35,062 nucleotides of DNA, taken from the NCBI GenBank assembly GCA_037481695.1, contig JBBFLE010000026.1, forward strand, positions 1 to 35,062, written 5' to 3'. Every line of letters starts with the position of its first letter. Within the stretch, counting starts at the first letter, position 1. Below, one piece after another: positions 10,218-32,788 of the stretch. The notes under the pieces were generated by a model, which was given only the letters and a program-made list of their open reading frames with translations, was not told the DNA's origin and did no database searches. Made by a program: the position numbers and the translations under genes. This stretch comes from a bacterium. Its GTDB lineage: Bacteria > Desulfobacterota > Desulfocorpusculales > Desulfocorpusculum.

Positions 10218-11153
10218 ATGGACATTGCCTATGAGCTTATTATCTTGGGTGCCGGTCCTGCCGGGCTCACGGCGGGGATCTTTGCTGCCAGGGCAAGGAT
10301 CAAGACCCTGATCCTGGGGGCCAGGCCAGGAGGTAAGCCCCTCATGTACGACCAGATCGGGAACTATCCTGGATTTCCGGGTGGGGTGACCGGAGCCCAG
10401 TTGATGACCGGCATGCTGCAGCAGGTGAGCGACCTGGATGTTGACCGAGTATGGGAGGATGCCACAGCCTTGGAAATGGGAAGGGATTTTAAAGCAGTTC
10501 TGGTTGGGAAACAGAAGCACCTCTCCAGGGCATTGATCGTGGCCACGGGATCCGAGCCCATTCCCTTGGAAGTTCCTGGTGCAGCCGAATATGAAGGCAG
10601 AGGCATCTATTACTGTGCCCATTGTGATGCGCCTGTTTTCAGAGCAATGGAGAAGTCCAAGGCTGTTGTGGTGGGAGGGGGGGATTCGGCCCTTTACACG
10701 GCCCTCTATTTGACCAAACATGCTAAGGAGATCACAGTGGTGCACAGAGGCTCAAGGCTCAGGGCCAGCAAAGCGGCTCAGGACTCTGCCCTTTCCCACC
10801 CGGGCATCCGCCTAGTCCTCAACAGGGAAGTAGTGGAAGTAAAGGGAGACAGCAGGCACATCAATGGGTTGATACTCCGGGATCCAGCAACTGGAGGCAC
10901 AAGCCTTCTTAGTGCTGACGGGGTCTTTGTAGGGATTGGTCAAAGGCCTAACTCAAAAATAGTGGAAGGCATTCTCCAACTGGATTCAGAGGGATTTATT
11001 GTGGTGAATAGCCGGATGCACACATCTGCCCCCGGTGTCTTTGCTGCGGGTGATGTAATCCAGAAATCCCTGAGACAAATAGTGACAGCAGCAAGTGACG
11101 GAGCCGTGGCTGCGGATTCTGCCACCAGATTCTTACAAGGGATGATGGTATGA
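10218..11153 (+). CDS. Thioredoxin reductase-like flavoprotein
   Basis: A 311-residue FAD/NAD(P)H oxidoreductase of the TrxB family. The FAD-binding GAGPAGLTAG is at residues 11-20, the redox-active Cys pair CAHC at 133-136, the NAD(P)H-binding VVVGGGDSALY at 150-160 and the C-terminal FAD motif GVFAAGDV near 280. It would reduce a thioredoxin or small disulfide protein with NAD(P)H. The ATG follows a GGGAGG site. It overlaps the first corrinoid adenosyltransferase by four bases (ATGA), so a role in reducing the partner of corrinoid adenosylation, or the many small thiol proteins encoded on the other strand, is plausible but inferred. Confidence 0.9.
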   Translation: MDIAYELIILGAGPAGLTAGIFAARARIKTLILGARPGGKPLMYDQIGNYPGFPGGVTGAQLMTGMLQQVSDLDVDRVWEDATALEMGRDFKAVLVGKQKHLSRALIVATGSEPIPLEVPGAAEYEGRGIYYCAHCDAPVFRAMEKSKAVVVGGGDSALYTALYLTKHAKEITVVHRGSRLRASKAAQDSALSHPGIRLVLNREVVEVKGDSRHINGLILRDPATGGTSLLSADGVFVGIGQRPNSKIVEGILQLDSEGFIVVNSRMHTSAPGVFAAGDVIQKSLRQIVTAASDGAVAADSATRFLQGMMV

Positions 11154-11740
11154 CAGGGGTTGCTTTGGATCAGGAAAAGGGCACAGGAATTCAAAAAGGC
11201 TACAGAGGTCTCTTACGAGTATACACAGGGGAGGGCAAAGGAAAGACCACGGCTGCTCTGGGTCAGGCCATCAGGGCAGCCTCTCAGGGCAAACGTGTGC
11301 TCTTCATACAGTTTATGAAAGGACAGGAAACAGGAGAACTCAAGGCCATACTGAGAAGCGGCCTGCCTATAGACATAGAAAGATTTGGCAGACCCGTTTT
11401 CCTTCAAGCACCCCTTCACAGCCCACCCAGTAGAACAGGTGAATCCCTGGACATGCTTCTGGCTCATCAGGGACTGGAGGCCTTGGAAAGAGCCATGAAA
11501 AAGGGCCTTTACCAGCTAATTATCCTCGACGAGATAAACATGGCAATGGATTTTGGTCTCTTGGAAGTGCGGGAGGTAATGAGGGTGATCAAAGAGAAAC
11601 CTGAGGGACTTTGCCTCATCTTGACCGGCCGAAACGCCCCCAAAGAAGTGATGGAGGCCGCCGACTCGGTGACAGTATTGCTGGAGCTCAAGCACCATTA
11701 TAGATCTGGGGAAAAACCCAAAAAAGGTATTGAATTCTAG
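11150..11740 (+). CDS. cobO: Corrinoid adenosyltransferase, copy 1 (CobO/BtuR type)
   Basis: Transfers the 5'-deoxyadenosyl group of ATP to cob(I)alamin or cob(I)yrinic acid diamide. The 196-residue protein has the CobA/CobO P-loop GEGKGKTT at 27-34, then the diagnostic VLFIQFMKG, the Walker-B-like LIILDEINMAMDFGLL and the C-terminal LILTGRNAP and HHYRSGEK segments. It is coupled to the upstream thioredoxin-reductase-like gene through an ATGA overlap. A paralogue lies 320 bases downstream. The role fits the B12-import operon transcribed divergently from the same region. Confidence 0.94.
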   Translation: MTGVALDQEKGTGIQKGYRGLLRVYTGEGKGKTTAALGQAIRAASQGKRVLFIQFMKGQETGELKAILRSGLPIDIERFGRPVFLQAPLHSPPSRTGESLDMLLAHQGLEALERAMKKGLYQLIILDEINMAMDFGLLEVREVMRVIKEKPEGLCLILTGRNAPKEVMEAADSVTVLLELKHHYRSGEKPKKGIEF

Positions 11741-12060: not shown

Positions 12061-12648
12061 GTGGTGCGTTCAATGGCTGATGAGAGATTTGAGGCGACAG
12101 CTGGGGCGAGAAGAGGGCTGGTTTGGGTGTACACAGGGGCTGGCAAGGGCAAGACCACGGCTGCCCTGGGACAGGTCCTTAGGGCTGCCATGCAGGGCAA
12201 AAGAGTCCTTTTCATCCAGTTCATGAAAGGACAGCAGACCGGAGAGCTGAATGCAATCTCCCAGATGGGTCTTCCCATAGAGGTGCAACGGTTCGGCCGG
12301 GCGGCCTTCCTGCGAAGAAGCCCTGGTCAATCCACCAGTAAAGCCTGCGAACCTCTGGATATTCTCTTGGCTTACAGGGGGCTTCAGGCCCTGGAAACAG
12401 CCATGTTCAGCGGATCCTATGTCCTTATAGCCTTGGACGAGATCAATGTGGCCATGGACTTCGGGCTCTTGAAGACAGAGAGTGTATTGGAGCTGATTCG
12501 AAGGAAACCACCATGGGTCGAGTTGATCCTGACGGGTAGGAACGCCCCGGTGGAATTGCTGGAAATGGCCGATGTGGTCACAGAGATGAGGGAGGTGAAA
12601 CATCACTACCGAAGGGGAGACAGAATGAGAAGGGGGATAGAATTTTGA
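12061..12648 (+). CDS. cobO: Corrinoid adenosyltransferase, copy 2 (CobO/BtuR type)
   Basis: Second CobA/CobO-family ATP:corrinoid adenosyltransferase (195 residues). P-loop GAGKGKTT at 26-33, then VLFIQFMKGQQTGELNAI, LIALDEINVAMDFGLL and LILTGRNAPVELLEMAD, collinear with copy 1 throughout. The two differ in the middle and at the N-terminus, so the duplication is not very recent. GTG at 12061 has a GGAG site seven bases upstream; an ATG at 12073 is an alternative start. Two copies may serve different corrinoids or differ in regulation; the sequence does not decide. Confidence 0.93.
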   Translation: MVRSMADERFEATAGARRGLVWVYTGAGKGKTTAALGQVLRAAMQGKRVLFIQFMKGQQTGELNAISQMGLPIEVQRFGRAAFLRRSPGQSTSKACEPLDILLAYRGLQALETAMFSGSYVLIALDEINVAMDFGLLKTESVLELIRRKPPWVELILTGRNAPVELLEMADVVTEMREVKHHYRRGDRMRRGIEF

Positions 12649-17849: not shown

Positions 17850-18941
17850 TTAAACACTTGCTGACCAGGCAGAAATGCTCTCATAATCCCCAAATTCACG
17901 CGCCGCTTGCACCATGGCCTCTATATGGCCCAGGGGATCCCCGCGATGGATCGAGCAGGTGGCCATAAAGACGTAACCACCCCCAGGGGCAGCATGGCTA
18001 ATGCATCTTCGGGTCTCCTCCCGAATTCGCTCTTGTGGTCCAGGGTGTAGCACATGGGGTATGTCTATTCCGCCAAGGATCGCACTCCTGTCACCCCACA
18101 GGCGTTTTGCCACTCTCAGGTCGCAATTTTCAGCAAACTGAAATCCCACAATGCCGGTTTCAAGCGCGGCATCTACCAAGGGCCGATACCTTTCTAACGT
18201 GAAGTTGCCATGGGGATGAAAAACGACCCCCAAGCCGAGTTCGCTTGAGGCCGTGACTATTCTTCTCAGGTTTGGGATTGTGTAAGTCAGGTAAAACTCA
18301 GGCCTGATGAAAACCGGGCCGTCTGTTGCAGAGGCCAAGAAGACGAAATCTACACCCACCTTAGAAAGATGTCGCAAATGGCTGATCGCTATCTCAGTGG
18401 AGAAGGCTATCAAGTCTGTAGCAAATTTGGGATCTTTGACGAAGTCTCTGGCCAAGTTGTGTGTCCCGCGAAGGAGACAAGCCCTTGTCACAGGACCTTC
18501 AAGATTGGCGGCAATGGCGACCTTAGCCCCTATGCGTCGCTTGACAAGTTCATAAGCCTTTAGCACTCCGGGCAGTCTTCCGTCTTTGTCCATCTGTGGG
18601 ACCTTCGCACGGAGAAGCCTGTTTTTTTGCTCCAAAGGATGTCTTACAACTGTGGGTATGCCTTGGGAAGGAAAGGCGGTTTTGCCTCCAAGTGCATCTG
18701 CATCCAGTCCAAGATCATGGATGCTTCCCACGACGCAATCTTGTCCAAACCGACGCCAGCTCATAATCACAGCATGTGCGGATTTTTCGGCATGATAACC
18801 TCCGTTGGGGCCACCAGCACAGACCTCCCAAGTGGTAAATCCGGCCACCTCCATCCCCAAAGTCAAGTCCCGCAGGAAAATCGGGACTCGGTCGGGCTGT
18901 CTCCCCGCAAGCGCGGTCATAATCCGATCTCTGCTATTCAC
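17850..18941 (-). CDS. UroD-family methyltransferase-like protein, divergent
   Basis: A 363-residue member of the uroporphyrinogen decarboxylase/MtaA superfamily. It starts NSRDRIMTALAGRQPDRVPI, the classic N-terminus, and ends with GGGYVFMATCSIHRGDPLGH and IEAMVQAAREFG, equivalent to the C-terminal zinc-Cys segment (Cys329). The motif that is HxCG in MtaA is His242-Pro-His244-Gly, so ligands would be His, His and Cys. Start is GTG at 18941, overlapping the stop of the 70-residue gene (GTGA); a longer frame to 19100 lacks a ribosome-binding site and covers that gene. It is followed by the ABC transporter operon, so it may act on the imported compound. Confidence 0.82.
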   Translation of the reverse strand: MNSRDRIMTALAGRQPDRVPIFLRDLTLGMEVAGFTTWEVCAGGPNGGYHAEKSAHAVIMSWRRFGQDCVVGSIHDLGLDADALGGKTAFPSQGIPTVVRHPLEQKNRLLRAKVPQMDKDGRLPGVLKAYELVKRRIGAKVAIAANLEGPVTRACLLRGTHNLARDFVKDPKFATDLIAFSTEIAISHLRHLSKVGVDFVFLASATDGPVFIRPEFYLTYTIPNLRRIVTASSELGLGVVFHPHGNFTLERYRPLVDAALETGIVGFQFAENCDLRVAKRLWGDRSAILGGIDIPHVLHPGPQERIREETRRCISHAAPGGGYVFMATCSIHRGDPLGHIEAMVQAAREFGDYESISAWSASV

Positions 18942-19150
18942 GCTGACCTGCCTGATATTTGTGGGCTCCCAGGATCCGAGTCTTGGGGTGGCGCAAACTG
19001 GCGGGCCTCTTCTTCGGTGTAACCCATGTGGCGGATTGCAACTTGGAATCCTCTTCCGTTGAAGATATATTGCACCAGTTGGGTCAGGTAATCGAAGCAA
19101 GAAAAGGGAGGCCCGGTCCCCATGACTCGCATCTCATGCTCTTTGAGCAT
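18938..19150 (-). CDS. Small 70-residue protein coupled to the UroD-family gene
   Basis: An unrecognised protein that starts MLKEHEMRVMGTGPPFSCFD at an ATG eight bases after AAGGAGG, the best ribosome-binding site in this stretch. Its stop overlaps the GTG start of the UroD-family gene, typical of coupled partners. Residues 18-45 (DYLTQLVQYIFNGRGFQVAI) look folded; the last 15 residues are polar. It has one cysteine and no signal peptide. It may be a small partner or leader protein of the methyltransferase-like enzyme. Confidence 0.65.
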   Translation of the reverse strand: MLKEHEMRVMGTGPPFSCFDYLTQLVQYIFNGRGFQVAIRHMGYTEEEARQFAPPQDSDPGSPQISGRSA

Positions 19151-21247: not shown

Positions 21248-22282
21248 TCAGGTAGTTTCCTGCATGGGATCCCAGACGGATTCCTTGGACAAAGCGGGGA
21301 ATCGATCTGTCAGGGCTTCCAGTTGTGGCATCACATCCGGCGGGGCGATGAAGACCAATCGATTGAGAAGATAAAGGCGCTCGGGCGGCAGCTGACGCTC
21401 CTGGATCTCCCACTTGCCCATCACAAGGCTGAAGAGATAAGTCCCTTGCCCCTGTGCCAGGAAACCCTTGGCCCTGACCACGGTCTTGGGCAGGTGGAGG
21501 GCCACTTCCCGGAAGGCTTCCAGGCTTTGGCCTTCCCATTTGTAGATTGCGGACACCAACAGGTCAGGGGGGGTCACTTCCCTGTTGGGGTCAGCCAGGA
21601 GTTCATCTATGGCCAGCTCCAATTCCTGGGCGGAGAGCATAACCCCTTTGGTGCCATCATCTGGGATGGGAGCCTGAGCTCTGGTGGATAGCCCCCCAAA
21701 GAATATCTCCAGGGGGATGTCAGCATAGGTTGTCTCGAAGAACCTGGGACTGGGGTTGTGTCTGGAGATGAGTTCCTTGATGCGATCAACCTGCCCAGGC
21801 GAGGCGAGATCAATCTTATTTATTATGAACGCGGTAGATGAAGCTATCTGTTTTTCCACCGAGGAAAAGGTCTCGTAGGCCTCTTGGAAATTGGCCGCAT
21901 CCACGATACAGAACTGCTCCAACAGGTGAAAACGGTCCTGGAAGAAGGGGAGCTTGAGGTCTCGCTTCAGATCAGTTGGATTGGCCACACCAGTGGACTC
22001 GATGAGAAGCACGTCCGGTTGGATCTTCTGAGCGATCTCGTGCATCCCCTTGATGAAGTCCGTCTTCACGCAAACACAGAATATGGACCCCTTGCTGATC
22101 TCTAGAATGTCCAGGTCCTCACCTTCTATGAGGGTGCCGTCGATGCCCACCTCACCGAATTCGTTCATCAGGATCATCAGCTTGCGGTCTCTGGGAAAGG
22201 ACGCTATGACGCGATTGAGAAAGGTGGTCTTACCGCTTCCCAAAAAGCCTGTAATTAGGAAAACATCTGTATTTTGACCCAT
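21248..22282 (-). CDS. CobW/COG0523-family GTPase, copy 2 (altered metal motif)
   Basis: A 344-residue G3E GTPase. Walker A GFLGSGKTT is at 12-20, followed by MILMNEFGEVGIDGTLIEGE, and NKID occurs in TAFIINKIDLASPG. At the place of the usual GCxCC metal motif it reads GSIFCVCV (residues 65-72), so only two of the cysteines remain, in a shifted CxC. The start ATG at 22282 follows GGCGGAG; the in-frame extension to 22378 is not protein-like. It directly follows the small disulfide protein. The long operon from the right appears to end here. It may serve the same proteins as the CobW at 26621, with another metal or none. Confidence 0.87.
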   Translation of the reverse strand: MGQNTDVFLITGFLGSGKTTFLNRVIASFPRDRKLMILMNEFGEVGIDGTLIEGEDLDILEISKGSIFCVCVKTDFIKGMHEIAQKIQPDVLLIESTGVANPTDLKRDLKLPFFQDRFHLLEQFCIVDAANFQEAYETFSSVEKQIASSTAFIINKIDLASPGQVDRIKELISRHNPSPRFFETTYADIPLEIFFGGLSTRAQAPIPDDGTKGVMLSAQELELAIDELLADPNREVTPPDLLVSAIYKWEGQSLEAFREVALHLPKTVVRAKGFLAQGQGTYLFSLVMGKWEIQERQLPPERLYLLNRLVFIAPPDVMPQLEALTDRFPALSKESVWDPMQETT

Positions 22283-22295
22283 GACAGCACTCCGC

Positions 22296-22553
22296 CTAAC
22301 CTGGCACCATGCCCTTGGCCTTGAGCATTTCGAAGATCTGTTCCGGTGAGAGGACTCTGGCCGTACAAACAACCTCACCGTCTATAACAAGACCCGGAGT
22401 AGCAAAAACGCCCATCTTCAGGAAGTATTGAGGCTCTTTGATCTTTTCCACCTGAACCAAGTCCTTGGAACCCGCCATTTCCAAGGCCTTGATCACATTT
22501 TGATATAAGACCTCACAATTCCTGCAACCTGGGCCAAGGACCTGGATCTTCAT
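22296..22553 (-). CDS. Small redox-active disulfide protein (thioredoxin_3 family)
   Basis: An 85-residue protein starting MKIQVLGPGCRNCEVLYQNV, the signature of the glutaredoxin-like 'redox-active disulfide protein 2' family, with the pair CRNC at 10-13 and a cis-Pro segment FATPGLVIDGEVV. The ATG at 22553 follows GGGAGG; a longer in-frame reading is not supported. Members reduce disulfides, with electrons from a thioredoxin-reductase-type protein; the flavoprotein at 10218 could fill that role. Confidence 0.9.
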   Translation of the reverse strand: MKIQVLGPGCRNCEVLYQNVIKALEMAGSKDLVQVEKIKEPQYFLKMGVFATPGLVIDGEVVCTARVLSPEQIFEMLKAKGMVPG

Positions 22554-22594
22554 CCTTTTCCTCCCATCTATCCCTGATTTTCCTGGGTCAGCAT

Positions 22595-22879
22595 TCAAAG
22601 ATCCCCATCTAGGCCCACAGCCTTTTTCCCCCGCTCCATACGAAGCAAGTGGCGGCAGAACTTGCAAAGAACCAGTTCCCCTTGCTTTGCGAACTCCTCC
22701 CACGCCTGGGTGTATTCATCAGAAGCAGGATCCAATTCAGAGGGTTGCTCCAGTCTGTAAATTCGATCCGTCTTGCCGCAGTAAGGGCAGGTGACTCCGA
22801 AAAAAGCTGTTTCATGTCTTGGAAGGCCCATCTCCATTACCAGTAGTCTGAGACGTTCTATGCGTTCCCAAAGATCCAT
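22595..22879 (-). CDS. Small zinc-ribbon protein
   Basis: A 94-residue protein with two Cys pairs, CPYC (residues 31-34) and CKFC (residues 72-75), that would hold a zinc ribbon around a mostly helical middle. It is not a family I can name. The start overlaps nothing but follows the SMC-like gene by ten bases with GAGG eight bases upstream. It may be a small adaptor of the SMC-like ATPase, an inference from adjacency. Confidence 0.7.
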   Translation of the reverse strand: MDLWERIERLRLLVMEMGLPRHETAFFGVTCPYCGKTDRIYRLEQPSELDPASDEYTQAWEEFAKQGELVLCKFCRHLLRMERGKKAVGLDGDL

Positions 22880-23879: not shown

Positions 23880-24179
23880 TCACGAAATATCCCTGTTTTT
23901 CTTTTCATGACGGGCCAGTATTTCCTTGATTAACTCCTCCTGGCCTGGAATGATGGCCTCGAAAACCAACTCTTGGTCCAAGGCCAAACTGGGCAAAGAT
24001 CTAGCTTTCAACTCCCTGGAGCGCTGAAAACCCTCCAGAGTCCGCATGTCCCACTGCCGGACTTCTATGATTTCCTGTATTTCCCTCGGTAAGGACCTTA
24101 CCGACTCCGCCATGTACACACACGCAATTCATTGACGGAAATCGGTAAGAAGCACATCCACTAAGACTTTTCTATCCAT
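23880..24179 (-). CDS. Selenocysteine-containing thioredoxin-fold protein 1 (UxxC)
   Basis: A 99-residue protein if UGA at 24129-24131 is read as selenocysteine (residue 17). The N-terminal part is MDRKVLVDVLLTDFRQ-Sec-IACVYMAES. It aligns nearly gap-free with the Cys protein at 24994-25398 (IDVLTLDSVQ-Cys-AACGYMMES), and the match continues on both sides of the UGA, through a cis-Pro strand (LPSLALDQELVFEAII) to the last helix. Thus Sec replaces the attacking Cys of a CxxC motif. A hairpin at 24086-24104 is a fitting SECIS. Standard calling would start at a GTG after the UGA. Its stop is also UGA, nine bases before the SMC-like gene. Confidence 0.88.
24086..24104 (-). promoter_or_regulatory. 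Candidate bacterial SECIS element of Sec-thioredoxin 1
   Basis: Reading the mRNA, TCGGTAAG-GTC-CTTACCGA forms eight perfect base pairs with a three-base loop beginning with G. The loop starts 33 bases after the UGA, within the range usual for bacterial SECIS hairpins (about 16-37). Confidence 0.7.
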
Positions 24180-24214: not shown

Positions 24215-24502
24215 TCAATCATTGAGGAGCCTATCCAGATACTTCCTCAATTCTTCTATGCTAGGTATGTATTCGAACGCGAGCATTCCGTTGATGAAGA
24301 TGGACGGCACTCTAGCCGGACGACCGAGTTCTTTGGAGAGCTCCATACATCTTGTAGCTCCACTCAACTCCTTGGTAATAACCTTCTCCCAGCGGAGGGC
24401 TTGACCATAATCAGGCGCCACAGACTCGACCACCCGGGTCATGTATGCGCAAGGGATTCAGTGTTCCCCCTCGTGTAATATCTCAAGGTGAACTTGTCTC
24501 AT
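24215..24502 (-). CDS. Selenocysteine-containing thioredoxin-fold protein 2 (UxxC)
   Basis: A 95-residue protein if UGA at 24458-24460 encodes Sec (residue 15): MRQVHLEILHEGEH-Sec-IPCAYMTRV. It aligns with its immediate upstream neighbour at 24499-24885 (YKADY-Cys-LPCYYMDEA) on both sides of the UGA, including the closing cis-Pro segment VPSIFINGMLAFEYIPS. Its ATG overlaps the stop of that gene (ATGA), which supports translation from 24502 and hence through the UGA. A weak hairpin follows at SECIS distance. Conventional calling gives only a fragment from the ATG at 24442. Confidence 0.87.
24427..24441 (-). promoter_or_regulatory. Weak candidate SECIS element of Sec-thioredoxin 2
   Basis: GACC-CGGGT-GGTC plus one U-G pair forms a short stem with a G-rich five-base loop; the loop starts 22 bases after the UGA. 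Position fits a bacterial SECIS, but the stem is only four to five pairs. Confidence 0.4.
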
Positions 24503-24885
24503 TTCCGGTCTCCCTGACCCCATGCTAGGGCAAGCCTCTCAAGGGCCTCTTCGATGGCTTCCTCCAGTTCGTCTCTTGTGGGAATCATGTCAAAGACCAA
24601 TTCCCCTTGGATGAACAGGGAGGGAACCGGCGCCAGCCGCATATGCTTGAGCACCCCTTCATCCCCATAGAGGGACTTGGAGAGCTCTAGGAAACGTTTC
24701 CCCCCCTCCCTGGTCATGAAGTGAACTCTCCTGTAGTCTATTTTTTCCCCATACTGCGGCAATACTTCTCTAACAGCCTCGTCCATGTAATAACAGGGCA
24801 AGCAATAGTCTGCCTTGTACATGACCTCTATGAGGAGTTTTTCTCCCTCTGGAAGAGCCCAAAAGGCTTCTCCTGTTGCAGGCAT
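24499..24885 (-). CDS. Thioredoxin-fold protein with CLPC motif (Cys homologue)
   Basis: A 128-residue protein with the pair CLPC at 28-31 in YKADYCLPCYYMDEAV, a cis-Pro strand VPSLFIQGELVFDMIPT and a closing acidic helix. It is the Cys-containing counterpart of the Sec protein just downstream, with an extra insertion near residues 83-88. The start follows GGGGAGG nine bases upstream. Its stop overlaps the start of the Sec gene. It has no signal peptide, so it should be cytoplasmic. Confidence 0.85.
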   Translation of the reverse strand: MPATGEAFWALPEGEKLLIEVMYKADYCLPCYYMDEAVREVLPQYGEKIDYRRVHFMTREGGKRFLELSKSLYGDEGVLKHMRLAPVPSLFIQGELVFDMIPTRDELEEAIEEALERLALAWGQGDRK

Positions 24886-24993: not shown

Positions 24994-25398
24994 TCACACG
25001 ATGCTGGAGTCTGATCTTGTGAACCGGCCGGCACCTGCTCTTTGCAGGTTTTCCTGAATCTTGTCAAATTCGAACCCCTTTTCCCTCAGGGACAAGATCT
25101 TGTCCCTCATGGTGGGTGTTGGGGCCCTCTTGGCCATCTCATCGATGAGCTCCTCGTATTGGGGAATGATGCTCTCGAAGACGAGATCCCGCTCAATGCA
25201 GATGGTGGGAAGCACCCTTCCTTTCAACTCCAGGAATTTCCCGATCCCGTCCTTGTTCTTGATGGACCATTCCCTGTACTCGATCATGTCCTGGACTTCA
25301 GTGGGCATGGCGGCGATGGATTCCATCATGTAACCGCAAGCTGCGCACTGCACGCTGTCCAAGGTGAGCACATCGATATGGATCTTTTCCTCAGACAT
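24994..25398 (-). CDS. Thioredoxin-fold protein with CAAC motif (Cys homologue)
   Basis: A 134-residue protein with CAAC at 18-21 in LDSVQCAACGYMMESI, a cis-Pro strand LPTICIERDLVFESII, and a 40-residue C-terminal extension (MRDKILSLREKGFEFDKIQE and beyond) that the Sec homologue at 23880 lacks. The ATG at 25398 stands six bases after AAGGAGG; a GTG two codons earlier overlaps that site. It starts 24 bases after the read-through stop of the Sec-methyltransferase, tight spacing that fits the longer reading of that gene. Confidence 0.86.
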   Translation of the reverse strand: MSEEKIHIDVLTLDSVQCAACGYMMESIAAMPTEVQDMIEYREWSIKNKDGIGKFLELKGRVLPTICIERDLVFESIIPQYEELIDEMAKRAPTPTMRDKILSLREKGFEFDKIQENLQRAGAGRFTRSDSSIV

Positions 25399-25422: not shown

Positions 25423-26457
25423 TCACCAGGACTCTGGGTACTTGGTGTAATACTGGTAATACCAATCTCTCGCCTCATAAGCCTGATCCATATGTTCCAC
25501 CGGAACATCGTAGGGCATGTCTCACCCAGGGGCAAAAGTGAACCCGGTGTTGCCACCGGCAGCCAGGCTCACTATGGCATCCTCCCTAGGTGAAAGAAGT
25601 CCCAAGCTTAGGGCCAGGGTAAGTTTAAGATTCCCGCCGAACCCCACCTTGTACTTCATGGCCATGTCCCTTACGAACAACATGTTAAGCTGTTCGTCAA
25701 TGGCAAAGCCGTGAGTTCCCACCTTGCAGACCTCCTCTAGGACCTTGGTGCAGTCTCCGCAGATGAAGAAAGAGGAAGTCTTTCCAGCCTCATGAATGGC
25801 CTTTATGGCAGGCTGGGAATTAGGGGTCACGTACTCCCTGAAGGTCTCTGGTTTTATCTGGGAAGCCACCGGATCCACCACACAGATGATGTCGCATCCC
25901 ATCTCGGCGTAGAACCTAGCAGAGCAGGCCCCAACCTCTCCGGCAAACTTGATCACCTCGTGGGCAAAATCCTTTTTCTTGTAAACATCCGTAAATATCC
26001 TGACACCTGCCAGGTGGGAAGCCAGGGTCAGGGGACCGCACAGCAATCCCATCATCACGCAATCCAGCTCGTCCAACTGCGGCTTGGCGATCCTGGCTGC
26101 CTCAAAAATGACCGGCCATCTACCTGATTCCTTGGTGGGGAGCTTCAGCCCGGCCTCTGAGGGTGTCTTGTCCGAGCATGGATGAGTCACCACCGAAGGC
26201 ACATTGTCCCCCCACCACTTGAGCTCGCAGCCCACTGCATTGGCTTCCACTGAGAGGTCGAAAAGCAACGGGATCCCGTCGGCATGGTAACGCTTGGCCG
26301 CATTGACTACCCCTTTGGCCAGCAGCTGAGGATCCTTCAAAAACTTGTCAGCGGGCTCGTTGATCAGAAAGGCACTGTGGACCCCCGAATAGGGGACCCA
26401 GGGGGGAATGTCGGTCCTTTTTCCCCTATAAGCATCTATCAACCTCTGTTTGGCCAT
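25423..26457 (-). CDS. Selenocysteine-containing UroD/MtaA-family methyltransferase
   Basis: A 344-residue protein if UGA at 25522-25524 is Sec312. Up to the UGA it is a normal UroD/MtaA-fold protein; the usual family end is PGC(D/G)-x-P followed by a helix. Here it reads TFAPG-Sec-DMPYDVPVEHMDQ and continues for 32 residues to a UGA stop at 25423. So Sec takes the place of the C-terminal zinc-ligand Cys. The other site is FIC233GDC236 in place of HxCG, so His is lost and a second Cys gained. The ATG follows AAGGAGG. A perfect hairpin sits at SECIS distance. The four thioredoxin-fold genes follow directly. Its substrate is unknown; methyl transfer to or from a corrinoid is the family role. 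Confidence 0.88.
25492..25508 (-). promoter_or_regulatory. Candidate bacterial SECIS element of the Sec-methyltransferase
   Basis: In the mRNA ATGTTCC-GGT-GGAACAT forms seven perfect pairs with a GGU triloop. The loop starts 21 bases after the UGA, in the bacterial SECIS range, and GGU resembles the loop bases that SelB contacts in E. coli fdhF. Confidence 0.75.
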
Positions 26458-26606: not shown

Positions 26607-26630
26607 CTGCGCCTTGATTCCTAGGCGCAG
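26607..26630 (-). repeat. Hairpin spanning the CobW copy 3 stop codon
   Basis: CTGCGCC and GGCGCAG (26607-26613 and 26624-26630) pair around the TAG stop. There is no T-run. It could be a processing or attenuation site between the two halves of the operon; about 150 gene-free bases follow before the Sec-methyltransferase, including an isolated AAGGAGG at 26535-26541 with no good start codon. Confidence 0.35.
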
Positions 26631-27559
26631 AGACATTCTTTGAGCCGTTCAATGATTTTGGTCTGCTCCACTCTCCATCCCACGAAGGCCAGTCGGGTCT
26701 GGCCAGATCCTTGCAGGCTTACCCATTCGGTCTTACCTCCCACATGATTGATGAAGCAAAGCCCATTTTCCAAAAGAGCAAAGCCTTTCACCCGGTAGAG
26801 CTCATAGGGAAGCTGGCTCAGAAATTTCCTGAAGCACTCCTCTCGCAGGGGGACATCTCCTTGGAAGGCAAAGCTCACAAAGCCCATGCCGTGAGCATCT
26901 TCATGGCTTTCGTGCTCATGGAGCCCCTGCAGCCTAGATTCCAACAGATGATCCTCAGATACGCTCCAGAGAACTTGAGGATCAACTTTGCAATGGTGTG
27001 TGGGAACCACTGCTGTGCCAGGATTGTTTTCTTGGATTTCACGCAAGAAAACGGGTATTTTCTCAGGCGACAAAAGATCCACCTTGTTTAGGAGCACCAG
27101 ATCAGCCGCGCGTATTTGGTTGAAAAAAAGCGGACCTAGATGCTCCCGATTTTCCCAAAAGTCTGCATCCACAACGGTAATGACTTTCTGCACAAACAGG
27201 GATCCAGATGGTTCTTCGTTTTTCAGCACGTCCAGGATTTCCACAGGATCTGCCACTCCCGTGGCTTCTATGAGTAAACGCCTGGGGTCGAAAGTCTTGA
27301 TTATTTCTCTGAGGCTCCTCAAGAGATCTCCCTGGATAGTGCAGCATATGCATCCGTTGGTAAGCTCCACCACGGGTGTGCCACCATTTTTGAGCAGCTC
27401 TCCGTCAATACCTATCTGTCCGAACTCGTTTACCAAGACAGCTGTGGAAGAAAGGTCCCCTGGCCAGCTTAGAATGTGGCGAAGGAGCGTGGTTTTTCCT
27501 GCTCCCAAAAACCCACCTATGAGGGTCACTGCGCATGGAGCCGAATTCTTCCCAGACAT
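26621..27559 (-). CDS. CobW/COG0523-family GTPase, copy 3
   Basis: A 312-residue G3E GTPase with all classic motifs: Walker A GGFLGAGKTT (15-24), NEFGQIGIDGELL, the metal motif GCICC (69-73), LIEATGVADP, NKVD in LVLLNKVDLL and a histidine-rich loop HEHESHEDAHG (214-224). The C-terminal CobW_C domain ends in CLCA. It most resembles the YjiA/YeiR-type zinc chaperones. The ATG at 27559 lies eleven bases after the DUF2284 stop; the in-frame extension to 27718 is a shadow of that gene. As the gene before the Sec-methyltransferase, it is a candidate to load its metal. Confidence 0.92.
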   Translation of the reverse strand: MSGKNSAPCAVTLIGGFLGAGKTTLLRHILSWPGDLSSTAVLVNEFGQIGIDGELLKNGGTPVVELTNGCICCTIQGDLLRSLREIIKTFDPRRLLIEATGVADPVEILDVLKNEEPSGSLFVQKVITVVDADFWENREHLGPLFFNQIRAADLVLLNKVDLLSPEKIPVFLREIQENNPGTAVVPTHHCKVDPQVLWSVSEDHLLESRLQGLHEHESHEDAHGMGFVSFAFQGDVPLREECFRKFLSQLPYELYRVKGFALLENGLCFINHVGGKTEWVSLQGSGQTRLAFVGWRVEQTKIIERLKECLCA

Positions 27560-27570
27560 CACAGATCTTT

Positions 27571-28164
27571 TCACTCCACCAGAATGATTCCGTAATAATG
27601 GAAAAGGTCGCGCCTTTTTTGGGCCAGCCTGGGTCTGATGCCCAAGTTCTGCAAGGTGCCCAACAGGTCTATGGAGAAAGACTCCACTGAGGGCCTTTTC
27701 TCCTGGGGGAAACGGCAATCACCCGGGTATGCGCATTCTTTACACAGCCCGCAGGTTTCCCCCACCAACCCAAAAGCCTTGTAGTAGCCTTCCAAGAAAA
27801 GGGATCTCTCCAGGCTCACCGTGCCCTTCCAGCATCGCACTTGCTTGGCACGCTTGCGGGCATTGTCCAAATAGAAATCCGGACAATCCTGAGTTCCCAC
27901 AAGCAGAAGGGCTTCCCGGAATTCCCCCAATATGGACCTTGCAGTTTCAACCCCGGGTGTGGCAGGCGGACAACACCAGTTGGTGTTGTACTTCTTACAT
28001 CCATAACGGCATTTCAGATGTACCCACTGGCTTACCAGGATCTTTTCAGCCGGAAACGGAACCAGCAGCTCCAGACCGTAGCGTCTGGCGTTCTGGGTCA
28101 GACATCTCAATAGCTTCCTAGGAATTCCCTTGTGCTCCAAAGGGATGACTTTTCCATTTCTCAT
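27571..28164 (-). CDS. DUF2284 putative metal/Fe-S binding protein, copy 2
   Basis: A 197-residue paralogue of the protein at 14620-15126. Cysteines are at 52 and 56 (HLKCRYGCKKYN), 64-65 (NWCCPPATP) and 138, 141, 144 and 150 (CGLCKECAYPGDCRFP). The C-terminus YYGIILVE matches the other copy's VMVLLE, so the ends are homologous. It lies between the small cysteine-rich protein and CobW copy 3. Function is unknown; repeated pairing with corrinoid methyl-transfer genes suggests electron transfer or metal handling for them. Confidence 0.9.
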   Translation of the reverse strand: MRNGKVIPLEHKGIPRKLLRCLTQNARRYGLELLVPFPAEKILVSQWVHLKCRYGCKKYNTNWCCPPATPGVETARSILGEFREALLLVGTQDCPDFYLDNARKRAKQVRCWKGTVSLERSLFLEGYYKAFGLVGETCGLCKECAYPGDCRFPQEKRPSVESFSIDLLGTLQNLGIRPRLAQKRRDLFHYYGIILVE

Positions 28165-28199: not shown

Positions 28200-28535
28200 T
28201 CAGCCTCTTTGACCGGCCAGATCAAACAGAATTCTCACATCCCGAGCAACCGCCATGTCCATGGCCACCTCTGCTGCTTTTATCACAGCCAAAGGTACGG
28301 GGCAGGAAGCATGGCAACCAGCACTTTCAGCTGCCCGGTAGACCGGGTTGCTGGTGATAGGGGCAAAGAGCCCTTTCATGGCTATGGTAGTGAGCCGTTG
28401 TCCCATACTTTTTATGTGCTTGCACTCAGATCTAATCTCCAACCCAACGGACCACCTACCTTCTCTCCTGGCGCAAACATCACACAAGAAACCGCAGACA
28501 CCAGGCTCCACGGTTACCCTAATAGGATCTCCCAT
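28200..28535 (-). CDS. Small cysteine-rich protein (probably DUF6951-like)
   Basis: A 111-residue protein beginning MGDPIRVTVEPGVCGFLCDV and containing SECKHIKSMG and a C-terminal CHASCPVPLAVIKAAEVAMD. The mix resembles a family of small proteins seen next to corrinoid activation genes of anaerobes, which I believe is DUF6951, but the name is from memory. Cysteines (Cys14, 18, 21, then 42, 77 and 81) may bind a metal or cluster. I chose the ATG at 28535; a longer frame overlaps the end of the RACo gene. It lies 36 bases before the DUF2284 gene. Confidence 0.75.
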   Translation of the reverse strand: MGDPIRVTVEPGVCGFLCDVCARREGRWSVGLEIRSECKHIKSMGQRLTTIAMKGLFAPITSNPVYRAAESAGCHASCPVPLAVIKAAEVAMDMAVARDVRILFDLAGQRG

Positions 28536-28579
28536 CTCACAAAGGCCCTTGAGAGAAGCCTCTCCTCCCTGCGTGTTTC

Positions 28580-30637
28580 TTACTTCTGATGCAGTATCTC
28601 TGGCCTTACTATCCCCTCCAGATGGGGATACTTGTCTTTCATGTGAGGGATCTGCATACACTCCATGAACTGTTGTTGGAAGTCTTTCTCCACGGTGAGT
28701 TCTATGTATTCCACGTTTCTGGCTACCCAGTTGGCCTCAACCCTCTTCTCCCTGTTGAGAAGACACGCCCTGGCTCCGTCCCCTGCGGCGTTGCCTACAG
28801 AGATTATCCTGTCAATCTCGCAATCCGGGAAAAGCCCCATTACCAAGGCCTTGGTTCTGTCCACGTGGGTCCCAAAAGCACCGGCGATCTTCACCGAATC
28901 CACATGTTCCACTCCCATTCGCCTCATCATAAGTTTGCATCCAGCATGAAGAGCCCCTTTGGCCAGCTGGATTTGGCGCACATCCCTTTGAGTAATGACT
29001 ATGTCCTTACCTATACTTGTCTCTTCAGCCCAGGCCAGAACGAACTCGGGCTGATTGTTCTCGGGATTTCTCCTGAAACGAGGGGATTTCTGCTCCTTGT
29101 TGAAGACGCCGCTCTTGGTGATTACCCCGGCCGCATACAACTCCGCCAAAACATCCAAAATGCCCGAGCCGCAGATCCCTTTGGCCTTCATCTCTTTGGG
29201 CTCTGAGTAACTTCTCCAAGCGTCCCGGCCTATGACCTTGTAGTCCACTTCATGAGTGTCTGGGTCTATTTTGATGCGTTCAATGGCCCCAGGGGCCGCA
29301 CGCATGCCAAACAGTATCTGCGCCCCTTCCAAAGCCGGGCCTGTGGCGCAAGAAGAAGAGATCATCTTGTGTTTATTGCCCAGCACCAGTTCTCCATTGG
29401 TGCCTATGTCTATTATCAGAGCCATTTCATCCTTCTTGTACGGCTCTTCTGCCACCAGCACCCCCACGTTGTCTGCTCCTACAAATCCCGCCTCATTGGG
29501 AAGCACATGCACATAAGCCGAGGGGTTCACCTTGAGGCCCAGATCCCTGGCCTTGATATCCAGGCTATGGTGGATAACAGGAGGAAATGGTGCCAGTCCC
29601 ACGAACTGGGGATCCAGCTGGAGAAGAATGTGGTGCATGGCGGTGTTTCCCACTATGGTCACATCCTCCACATCTTCCCTAGAGAGCCTCAGGTAAGTCC
29701 TGCCTTCCTCAGGGACCTCCACCCACTCCTCCTGGGCATCGGCCCCCTTGCCTTTCTTGAGTTTCTTCTTAGGGGGGTGAGTGCCCTGCACGGCCTGATC
29801 AATGACCCAGTTGAGCCCTTCCACAATATCCTCACTCATGCGTTTGAGGCCATCTTCGGTGGTCATGTGGAAGGTTATCCGAGACATCACGTCTTCCCCG
29901 TACTTGCACTGGGGGTTCATGAGGGAAACCGTGTCCAGCACCTCCATGGTGTCCAGATTGCAGAAATAGCCGGCCACGGTTGTGGTGCCGATGTCTATGG
30001 CGATACCATAATGGGCCTCGCACCTGCCAGGCCTGACGCGTATTATCTCCTTGTCCATCCATATGCTCACCGTGACCTTCCACTCACCCTGCCTCAGAGC
30101 CCCCGGGAGCTGCCTCAATGTCAGAAAGTCGATCCCCAGATTGGTCAAGCCGTACAACCTCTCCAGCTCTCTGCAAACTCTCTCGAAATCCGCTGTTGGC
30201 TCCTCGAAAGTAGGAGGCTCCACCTCCACGTAGTAGGTCTTCACGGCCGGATTATGTTGTATTTCAATGGCCCTGGCAGCCTTGCTGACCACTTGTTTGC
30301 CTGCCCGGGACTCCTCTGGCACAAACACCAGAAGGTCCCCTTGCACCTTGGCGCAACAGGCCAGCCTGTAGCCAGCCCCCTTTTCCTCTGCGTTTATGAA
30401 CTTCTCTTCTTCCTCCTGCCAAGGGCTTGCGTTATCCATGCTGGAATGAATGCCAAATTTCTGGAAAAAACCTTCCTCAATGCGGACCTTGCACTTCCCG
30501 CACACCTTCTTTTCCCCGCAAAGGGTCTCTATGTCTACCCCAAGGACTCTCGAGGCCTCTATGAGGGTTGAATCCTTCTTAACAGGGCCTCTTCGTCCTG
30601 AAGGCTGAAATATGACCATGGCCTTGGCTTCGTCCAT
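28580..30637 (-). CDS. Reductive activator of corrinoid proteins (RACo/RamA-like, DUF4445)
   Basis: ATP-dependent reductase that returns inactive cob(II)alamin on corrinoid proteins to cob(I)alamin. The 685-residue protein has an N-terminal 2Fe-2S ferredoxin domain (Cys40, Cys46, Cys49 and Cys94 or 95), a linker, and a C-terminal ASKHA ATPase domain with GIAIDIGTTTVAGYF, VTIVGNTAMHHILL, LIIDIGTNGELVLGN and KIAGAFGTHVD. The ATG at 30637 is six bases after GGGGAGG; a GTG two codons earlier is an alternative. It follows the corrinoid protein and MtaA genes, its probable targets. The gene end has no overlap with the small Cys-rich gene. Confidence 0.94.
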   Translation of the reverse strand: MDEAKAMVIFQPSGRRGPVKKDSTLIEASRVLGVDIETLCGEKKVCGKCKVRIEEGFFQKFGIHSSMDNASPWQEEEEKFINAEEKGAGYRLACCAKVQGDLLVFVPEESRAGKQVVSKAARAIEIQHNPAVKTYYVEVEPPTFEEPTADFERVCRELERLYGLTNLGIDFLTLRQLPGALRQGEWKVTVSIWMDKEIIRVRPGRCEAHYGIAIDIGTTTVAGYFCNLDTMEVLDTVSLMNPQCKYGEDVMSRITFHMTTEDGLKRMSEDIVEGLNWVIDQAVQGTHPPKKKLKKGKGADAQEEWVEVPEEGRTYLRLSREDVEDVTIVGNTAMHHILLQLDPQFVGLAPFPPVIHHSLDIKARDLGLKVNPSAYVHVLPNEAGFVGADNVGVLVAEEPYKKDEMALIIDIGTNGELVLGNKHKMISSSCATGPALEGAQILFGMRAAPGAIERIKIDPDTHEVDYKVIGRDAWRSYSEPKEMKAKGICGSGILDVLAELYAAGVITKSGVFNKEQKSPRFRRNPENNQPEFVLAWAEETSIGKDIVITQRDVRQIQLAKGALHAGCKLMMRRMGVEHVDSVKIAGAFGTHVDRTKALVMGLFPDCEIDRIISVGNAAGDGARACLLNREKRVEANWVARNVEYIELTVEKDFQQQFMECMQIPHMKDKYPHLEGIVRPEILHQK

Positions 30638-30771
30638 CCCCACCTCCCCTTGAACCCAGGATTACATTGGCCGCTTCTTCAAGATCCAGCCCCTGGCAGA
30701 TCTTGCTCTGCAGTCTGAGGGTGGCTTGAGCTCTAATGCATTGGCAAGAGCACCTCTGTTAAAAGCCTTAT

Positions 30772-31443
30772 CTACACCTGACCTGCTGCCCTCATCTCTC
30801 TGAGCCTTCCTATCATCTTTATGGCTTCCTCCACGGCATTTCCTGCAGATTCGGCGTATCCGTCGGCTCCAAAGAGCTTGGCCACATCCTTGGTCACTGG
30901 AGCCCCGCCCAACATGATGGCCACGTTGGGGTTTTTTTCTTTGATCATCTGAATGACCTTGCGCATCCCCAACATGGTGGTGGTCATCATGGCGGACATG
31001 GCCACGATTTCCGCATCTGTTCTGAGCTGCTCTTTGACAAAGTTCTCCAGGGGCACGTCCCTGCCTAAGTCGTGCACTGTGAATCCAGCCACGTCGAACA
31101 TCATCTTGACCAGGTTCTTCCCTATGTCGTGCACGTCCCCCTGAACCGAGCCTATTACCACTTGAGCCTTGGACTCGCCCTCTTTCTTGGGTACATGCGG
31201 CCTGAGAATTCCCAGACCAGCATACAGAGCATCCGCGCACATTAAGACCTCGGGCACAAAGTACTCATTGCGTTCATAAAGCCCACCCACTATTTCCATA
31301 CCGTGGGCCAGTCCGTCCATGATGGCTTCCAAGGGGTCGTAGCCGTTGTCCACCACTGCTTGGGCCGCTTCTTTGACCTGATCCTCGTTGTAATTCACAA
31401 CCCCATCGCTCAATGCCTTGAGCAGCTCTTCCTTGTTTGCCAT
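30772..31443 (-). CDS. B12-binding corrinoid protein (MtaC/MtbC family)
   Basis: Methyl-carrying corrinoid protein of 223 residues. An N-terminal helical cap (residues 1-90) includes DPLEAIMDGLAHGMEIVGGL and YFVPEVLMCADALYAGL. The Rossmann B12 domain follows with the base-off motif DVHDIG (103-108), His105 being the lower cobalt ligand, then MMFDVAGFTVHDLGRDVP, MLGGAPVT and FGADGYAESAGNAVEEA. It would accept a methyl group from a substrate-specific methyltransferase and pass it to MtaA. The start follows AAGGAGG. It ends with TAG where the family normally ends. Confidence 0.95.
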   Translation of the reverse strand: MANKEELLKALSDGVVNYNEDQVKEAAQAVVDNGYDPLEAIMDGLAHGMEIVGGLYERNEYFVPEVLMCADALYAGLGILRPHVPKKEGESKAQVVIGSVQGDVHDIGKNLVKMMFDVAGFTVHDLGRDVPLENFVKEQLRTDAEIVAMSAMMTTTMLGMRKVIQMIKEKNPNVAIMLGGAPVTKDVAKLFGADGYAESAGNAVEEAIKMIGRLREMRAAGQV

Positions 31444-31545: not shown

Positions 31546-32604
31546 TCAGCTCAGACGGCCTACAGCAGGACTCGGCCTTGCTCCGCCATATTCCCTGGTG
31601 GTTTTCACTATGGCCAGCATGTTTTCCTCTTTTATGTCCGGCCAAAGGTCGCATCCCGGCATAACCGCATCCACCCCAGAGTCTATATTGACTTTTATGG
31701 CAGCCACCGCCTCTTGTACGGTGGTCTCAGCCTTGCAAGGCAGGGCGAAGACGTCGAAGTTGCCGAACAACAAGACATGGTTGCCGAGCTTCTTCCGCGT
31801 CTCCACCAGGTTATTTTTTATGTCCACACTGATGGCATCGGCTCCGCACTCGTTCATCATCTCCACCAGGGGATCCGTCTGCCCGCAGATGTGAAGAATT
31901 TTGGGTGATTTCCAGGCAGCCAATATCCTGGTCAATCGAGGCTTTATCATCTCACGAAAGGTCTTAGGACTAAGTAGATCAGCGGCTACTCCGGGCTCCC
32001 TCAGCGTGATATAGTCCGCACCTGCAGCCTGAAGGGCCTGCCCGATCTTGATGATCATTTCTGTGAGCTTGTCCAGGAGTTGCTCCACCTTGTCTCTTTG
32101 CTTGAACACGGCCTTCAGAATCATGTCCAGCTCCAGGATCTGCCCTGCCTGGGTGAAAGGTCCCAACTGCCACGCCCCTACCGGGTATTCAGGGGCTTGC
32201 TCCTTGATGATCTTTATGGCCTGGGGAATCAGGGGCATCCTGCCCAGTTCCATGATGTTCTCTGGGATTTCCACCTCATCCATGCTTTTCCATCTCTTCT
32301 CGGGTATTGTGGGATAAAGAATGTCCTCCGAATCCTCATAAAGGCTTATCTTGTTTCCCATGGCTTCAGACTCCCAGCACATGTCATAGGGCACCACAAT
32401 GGAGTCGAATCCCATGAGCTTGCTGGACCAGATGGCTGACTGAGCCAGGCGGTTGGCATCGGTGTGGACTTGGGCGAAATGGTATCCCAGCTTCTTTATG
32501 GCAGGCATCACCACCATCCCCATTCCACTGAAAAAGGGCATGGTGTCCAGAGGTTCCCTCTTGAAAAGCCTCATGATTCTCTCTTTGGGGGTGAACTGGG
32601 TCAT
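31546..32604 (-). CDS. MtaA/CmuA-family corrinoid methyltransferase, copy 2
   Basis: A 352-residue UroD-fold zinc methyltransferase with His238-x-Cys240 (KILHICGQTD) and Cys318 (VMPGCDLWPD). It aligns with the copy at 13397-14452 from residue 1 with hardly a gap, which also fixes the start at 32604, 10 bases after AAAGGAG, rather than at 32703. It sits directly upstream of the corrinoid-protein gene and is its likely partner. Both copies carry the same C-terminal tail RPSPAVGRLS. No substrate-specific MT1 such as MtaB, MttB or MtmB is in the window, so it may itself act on the methyl donor, as the CmuA-like fusion proteins do. Confidence 0.92.
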   Translation of the reverse strand: MTQFTPKERIMRLFKREPLDTMPFFSGMGMVVMPAIKKLGYHFAQVHTDANRLAQSAIWSSKLMGFDSIVVPYDMCWESEAMGNKISLYEDSEDILYPTIPEKRWKSMDEVEIPENIMELGRMPLIPQAIKIIKEQAPEYPVGAWQLGPFTQAGQILELDMILKAVFKQRDKVEQLLDKLTEMIIKIGQALQAAGADYITLREPGVAADLLSPKTFREMIKPRLTRILAAWKSPKILHICGQTDPLVEMMNECGADAISVDIKNNLVETRKKLGNHVLLFGNFDVFALPCKAETTVQEAVAAIKVNIDSGVDAVMPGCDLWPDIKEENMLAIVKTTREYGGARPSPAVGRLS

Positions 32605-32788
32605 CAAAGGACTCCTTTCTGTTGGGAGTTTCAGGTTTTGAACCCTTGTACCAAGAGCCGATCCCTGGTCTGCAACTGCTGTGCAAAGCCCAAAGCCTTC
32701 CAAAACAGCAAATTGGCTGGCTGCAAAGTTCTGATCCAGCTCAAGAAGATCCTTTTCCCAGCCTTGCTGTTCTCGTCCTTTTCAAAAC

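Follow-up and report, generated by a model that had tools for sequence, protein, structure and literature searches.

A UroD-superfamily selenoprotein family with predicted selenocysteine at the zinc-ligand column of MtaA

In a 35,062-nucleotide stretch of a Desulfocorpusculum genome (contig JBBFLE010000026.1, hereafter the window) we identified a gene in which an in-frame UGA codon falls at the column of a zinc-ligand cysteine of MtaA. Its product, here called Sec-UroD, belongs to a selenoprotein family that is new within a known superfamily and whose active site is altered. The selenocysteine (Sec) decoding signature, the fold, the ligand column and a thioredoxin-like partner were established in silico (features in Table 1). 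Our overall model, to which we assign a probability of about 0.6, is that of a true selenoprotein acting as an MtaA/MtbA-type second methyltransferase with a soft Cys/Sec site and a dedicated thioredoxin.

Table 1. Positions of Sec-UroD, its associated elements and neighbouring genes (window coordinates unless a locus is named)
Feature	Position	Strand	Remarks
Sec-containing UroD/MtaA-like protein (Sec-UroD)	25423..26457	-	ATG 26457-26455, stop TGA 25425-25423, 344 aa with predicted Sec312
UGA codon (predicted Sec)	25522..25524	-	Codon 312; column of C-terminal Zn-ligand Cys of MtaA
F231-I232-C233 codons	25759..25767	-	Remaining Cys ligand; His of HxC is Phe
bSECIS-like hairpin AUGUUCC-GGU-GGAACAU	25492..25508	-	14-30 nt after UGA; 7-bp stem, GGU loop
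Thioredoxin-like partner, motif LDSVQCAACGYM	24994..25398	-	Fused to Cys-form UroD relatives
Second thioredoxin-like protein, DYCLPCYYM	24499..24885	-	NF047660 83.7 bits, cut-off 105
HUIPC thioredoxin-like selenoprotein	24215..24502	-	Sec codon 24460-24458; NF047660 143.8 bits, above the cut-off of 105
Thioredoxin-like candidate selenoprotein FRQUIACVYM	23880..24179	-	Sec codon 24131-24129; UGA kept in several other loci
MTH895/ArsE-family thioredoxin-like protein	22296..22703	-	
CobW/COG0523 GTPase (metal chaperone family)	26621..27718	-	Upstream of Sec-UroD
DUF2284 metal-binding protein	27571..28164	-	
DUF6951 protein	28200..28661	-	
RACo/AcsV-like corrinoid reductive activase	28580..30643	-	
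Methyltransferase cognate corrinoid protein	30772..31443	-	
MtaA-like paralogue with His-x-Cys ... Cys	31546..32703	-	
Cys-form UroD + CAACTYM thioredoxin-like fusion	L069:1126-2484	-	
Cys-form UroD + CAACTYM thioredoxin-like fusion	L070:1126-2469	-	
Cys-form UroD + CAACTYM thioredoxin-like fusion	L077:119-1492	+	25.8-kb Subdoligranulum plasmid record

Reading through the in-frame UGA

A single in-frame TGA breaks the reading frame, which, read with Sec, encodes 311 residues, Sec and 32 more. A preliminary description of this DNA had placed the UGA in the context TFAPG-UGA-DMPYDVP and had proposed that the 32 further residues end 24 nt ahead of the next gene and its ribosome-binding site. Both points were confirmed, with the gene on the minus strand, the residues TFAPG-U-DMPYDVP around Sec312, and the ATG of the next gene at 25398, preceded by AAGGAGG. 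The Sec-read protein matched PF01208 over residues 2-330 with 158.1 bits (Pfam gathering score 23.9) and thus qualifies as a member of the UroD superfamily. Its top NCBIfam model was mtaA_cmuA, which scored 141.9 bits for the full-length and 133.7 bits for the truncated form, indicating that the extension past the UGA adds real family sequence. The score stays below the curated cut-off of the MtaA/CmuA subfamily (TIGR01463, 235.4 bits), membership of which is not supported, and no equivalog cut-off was exceeded in the NCBIfam profile search.

A scan of 84,980 species genomes yielded 38 orthologous loci at 67-85% identity. The codon at column 312 is TGA in 36 of the 37 orthologues covering it and TGC in the remaining one (L051), which was placed inside the UGA group on the tree, as fits a Sec-to-Cys replacement. 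Sampling of 395 genomes of the phylum contributed six loci with TGA (L062-L067), one with TGT (L068) and two distant relatives with TGC; as L062 and L050, each 22,312 bases long, are apparently one contig, we counted five further UGA genomes. Cysteine occupies the column in L051, L068, the relatives L069, L070 and L077, MtaA and the paralogues, including the two window copies (WPGCDLWPD and MPGCDLWPD) that the preliminary description had matched to it, and the alignment of UGA with Cys expected of a selenoprotein is therefore met. Orthologues ending at this codon, or homologues without a Cys/Sec column, would have refuted the Sec reading; the orthologues continue past the UGA and the column is Cys or Sec in all homologues. 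Codon diversity among orthologues after the UGA was 0.17, 0.16 and 0.38 at positions 1, 2 and 3, a protein-like periodicity that, together with the 36 TGA codons out of 37, rules out a chance column. Carriers are mostly sulfate-reducing bacteria and comprise Desulfobacterota-type bacteria, among them Desulfospira joergensenii and an Olavius symbiont, and Bacillota (Desulfofundulus, Desulfovirgula). No relatives were found in a search of viral contigs, and a plasmid search returned one informative Cys fusion (L077).

The source genome (52 contigs, 4.1 Mb) was checked for the Sec machinery, as had been suggested, and all four genes are present: selA (595 bits), selB (370 bits), selD (381 bits, itself with one in-frame TGA) and selC (74.6 bits, called tRNA-SeC by ARAGORN). 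SelB exceeded its family cut-off in 26 of 29 genomes with relatives of Sec-UroD.

A SECIS hairpin just downstream of the UGA, as required of a bacterial selenoprotein gene, is supported by codon conservation and compensatory changes. Among UGA genes, GTT (V318) is kept in 36/36 and CCG (P319) in 37/37; among the 88 near-invariant degenerate-codon columns (median top-codon share 0.52) these two rank highest in conservation, and the gene-wide peak of third-position conservation falls exactly on them. In L055 and L065, ACTCC pairs with GGAGC, a compensatory change from U-A to C-G. Sliding the partner columns out of register lowered pairing from 96.5% to 17-54%, and L051, the TGC orthologue, lacks the stem. 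When single sequences were folded, the RNA showed no significant stability (z -0.05 and -1.07; window sequence alone, z -1.07), so the case for a SECIS element rests on comparison. In the L064/L066 pair a shifted-register hairpin could re-form (ACGUUC-CGGUCGA-GAACGU), with GAG-AAC replacing GAA-CAT.

The default meaning of UGA is stop, and annotation pipelines would end the gene there, as would befit an ordinary terminator or a recent nonsense mutation with a product of 311 aa. We give this reading next to no weight, since it is already refuted comparatively: 42 distinct family members (66-100% identity) retain the UGA, both the frame and the hairpin beyond it are conserved, and the 311-aa form would lack the last helix of the barrel in the AlphaFold2 model. 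Insertion of another amino acid, by near-cognate suppression or a code change, would by itself account for the conserved downstream frame, but is scarcely credible: UGA also terminates genes in these genomes (TGA closes 5 of the 38 family genes), the genome holds a full Sec system, the only alternates at the column are Cys, and the hairpin tracks the UGA. Given the Sec genes, the UGA/Cys column, the conserved hairpin that is missing from the TGC orthologue and the compensatory change, decoding past the UGA appears close to certain from sequence, though it has not been shown biochemically. We have very little doubt that the gene encodes a selenoprotein, in the absence of protein or 75Se data.

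Fold and ligand residues

The AlphaFold2 model of the full-length chain reached a pLDDT of 92, and a helix beyond the UGA (320-336) completes the barrel. Its top PDB match was MtaA (4ay8; TM 0.85, Z 38.5, rmsd 2.2 over 323 residues), with UroD at Z 33. In a HMMER alignment with M. mazei MtaA (4ay7), HIC corresponds to F231-I-C233 and PGC to PG-U312, which bears out the earlier proposal that the UGA stands at the C-terminal zinc-ligand Cys of the PGC motif. Residues F231, C233, D254 and E255 and column 312 are invariant across 38 sequences, and the two window paralogues have HICG where Sec-UroD has FICG. The preliminary description had also read the other ligand site as changed from HxC to FxCGDC. 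The replacement of His by Phe and the invariant C233 hold, but the second Cys does not: C236 is Cys in 20 and Ala in 18 of the 38 sequences and was rejected as a new ligand. Distant Cys relatives share the Phe, the Cys, the DE pair and PGC; the His-to-Phe change is consequently not tied to Sec.

S-methyltransferases of the UroD superfamily hold zinc by His-Cys-Cys, and O-methyltransferases substitute carboxylates (PMC10418091). With Phe231-Cys233-Sec312, Sec-UroD does not meet the His-Cys-Cys pattern of that report. Zinc binding is not assured, given the invariant Phe in place of the zinc-ligand His, and the metal site may have changed or disappeared. Whether Sec312 is a metal ligand is, in our judgement, an even call, zinc binding being inferred without data from purified protein.

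At the ligand columns of a third MtaA-like paralogue in the window (17850-19100, minus strand) stand HPHG and ATC (H-x-H ... C); this paralogue adjoins an SsuA/SaoX-like ABC transporter.

Thioredoxin-like partner and genomic neighbourhood

A 130-aa protein with the motif LDSVQCAACGYM is encoded immediately downstream of Sec-UroD in 35 of 38 loci; the three loci without an adjacent thioredoxin all belong to one subclade. CAAC is invariant among 25 aligned copies, which also carry a thioredoxin-type LP[TS] motif. The partner model is thioredoxin-like by topology, and its Foldseek matches were all weak (best E 0.016) and mostly to thioredoxins. In three Cys-form relatives (L069, L070 and L077) this domain follows the UroD domain as a C-terminal fusion, and in L069 and L077 Pfam assigns it to Thioredoxin_3. 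Adjacency and fusion of this partner constitute the strongest functional link for Sec-UroD. Radical SAM genes lie beside the Cys fusion of L077 (1559-2566, plus strand) and beside Sec-UroD in L061 (7790-8809, plus strand), in different Bacillota, and might encode a further partner.

Additional thioredoxin-like genes lie further downstream in the window, two of them (HUIPC and FRQUIACVYM) with an in-frame UGA; the preliminary description had overlooked these two as well as the partner. The FRQUIACVYM protein (UxxC) is related to HUIPC, scored below the cut-off of any model and is perhaps a further unlisted selenoprotein family. An all-frame read-through screen gave candidates that were mostly antisense noise; among those listed, only the UroD, HUIPC and FRQU genes align UGA with Cys in many homologues. 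In a CobW-like GTPase (21248-22378, minus strand) GSIFCVC stands where GCxCC is the usual metal motif, and comparable variants (GSIFCAC, GQVFCSC) occur close to relatives in L051 and L070. A near-tandem pair of similar cobO-like genes (corrinoid adenosyltransferase), named by eye only, lies at 11150-11740 and 12061-12648 (both plus strand).

In the window, the genes upstream of Sec-UroD encode the CobW GTPase, the DUF2284 and DUF6951 proteins, the RACo/AcsV-like activase, the corrinoid protein and an MtaA-like paralogue. In the clusters of other loci MtrH-like genes are common. One subclade has an MtmB-family gene and a corrinoid protein directly upstream of Sec-UroD, and in L072 a distant fusion is accompanied by genes for MtmB, a corrinoid protein and an activase. 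In methanogens MtmB works in this manner with a corrinoid protein and MtbA, and a similar cluster exists in D. acetoxidans (PMC2933860); the MtmB-bearing clusters found here have the same gene set (mtmB, corrinoid protein, mtbA). A MIP/aquaporin-family channel near Sec-UroD in L043 (7758-8615, plus strand; by eye also in L028) might let a small uncharged substrate through.

Possible function and relation to known systems

In the model we prefer, SelB and tRNA-Sec would decode the UGA (25524-25522) as Sec, aided by the hairpin just downstream, to give a full-length UroD-fold TIM barrel. The protein would then act as an MtaA/MtbA-type second methyltransferase, exchanging methyl between a corrinoid protein and a thiol or selenol, an assignment that rests on the fold and the gene neighbourhood. 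Where MtaA holds zinc with His-Cys-Cys, the Cys233-Sec312 pair is inferred to form a soft site, most likely a metal site whose coordination a conserved carboxylate (D254/E255) or a substrate thiolate would complete, or alternatively a Cys/Sec dyad. The adjacent CxxC thioredoxin-like protein would serve as dedicated partner, either as a thiol methyl acceptor replacing coenzyme M or as a reductant of Sec. That Sec-UroD is a methyltransferase working with a corrinoid protein seems probable to us; the metal, the methyl transfer, its direction and the substrate are all inferred. We only tentatively suggest a methyltransferase active site of a new class, with the Cys/Sec pair standing in for the His-Cys-Cys zinc site and with methyl passing to or from the redox thiol of the thioredoxin, a protein cysteine acting as coenzyme M does in methanogens.

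Two other functions have to be considered for the selenoprotein. Cys233 and Sec312 could instead form a redox or soft-element site (a selenenylsulfide, or a site binding As, Se or Hg) that is recycled by the thioredoxin-like partners and has no part in zinc-dependent methyl transfer. Such a site would suit the loss of the zinc His, with Phe invariant in 38/38 and also in Cys relatives, as well as the several CxxC/UxxC thioredoxin-like genes, the ArsE-family thioredoxin and DUF2284 nearby and, in some loci, the aquaporin-family channel. However, a corrinoid protein, its activase and MtmB/MtrH/MtaA-type genes are neighbours too, and the fold matches MtaA above UroD; we regard a purely redox or soft-element role as unlikely. 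Sec-UroD might also act as the first methyltransferase (MT1): it would take the methyl group from a methylated compound of sulfur, selenium or a metalloid and load it onto the corrinoid protein, and MtrH would move it on to tetrahydrofolate. The MtrH-like genes in many clusters and the related C. ljungdahlii Mlp2, which acts on methylcobalamin and selenide (PMC10418091), speak for this possibility, which remains doubtful, as one subclade and a distant fusion already have an MtmB-type MT1 with a corrinoid protein.

In agreement with the preliminary description, which knew of no Sec metal-ligand methyltransferase of the corrinoid type, none was found in the sources searched. No UroD, MtaA or corrinoid:thiol methyltransferase family is in the 119-family prokaryotic selenoprotein inventory of 2026 (PMC13188914), NCBIfam (June 2026) has no model for the Sec-UroD family, and our literature search found no description of it, although a passing mention in key selenoprotein papers outside that search is possible. 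If our reading is true, selenium, whose usual places are redox and Ni/Mo sites, would have a new use at the zinc-ligand column of an enzyme of methyl transfer. Sec-UroD would also point to a corrinoid methyl pathway that has not been characterised, occurs mostly in sulfate reducers and may do without coenzyme M. Genes of this family are likely called truncated and misannotated. The isolates Desulfospira joergensenii and Desulfofundulus thermobenzoicus, which have the UGA form, make Sec-UroD testable.

The closest known systems are MtaA and MtbA (methylcobalamin:coenzyme M methyltransferase, PDB 4ay7/4ay8), which share the UroD TIM barrel, the PGC column and the position of the HxC strand, and are likewise encoded beside a corrinoid protein and an activase. 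Sec-UroD is 25-26% identical to them and differs in having Sec in place of the C-terminal Cys ligand, Phe in place of the His ligand, a dedicated thioredoxin partner and a distribution mainly in sulfate reducers. Type I MGC Mlps (PMC10418091) are similarly MtaA-like, belong to anaerobes, are encoded in clusters together with a corrinoid protein and an activase, and are linked to selenium metabolism; they are reported to have His-Cys-Cys without Sec in the enzyme, in contrast to Phe-Cys-Sec with thioredoxins in Sec-UroD. The HUIPC thioredoxin-like selenoprotein family (NF047660) has a true member three genes downstream, which is a neighbour and not Sec-UroD itself; we found no literature link between it and a UroD selenoprotein. 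That family was reportedly described by Haft and Tolstoy in 2025. The selenoproteins HgcA and arsenite methyltransferase place Sec in methyl-group or corrinoid chemistry of soft elements, as proposed here, but their folds are unrelated to UroD and their Sec is not at the UroD zinc site. Finally, Sec takes the place of a Cys metal ligand in [NiFeSe] hydrogenase and Sec formate dehydrogenase, as we propose for Sec-UroD, although at Ni and Mo/W redox centres rather than at a putative zinc/thiol methyl-transfer site.
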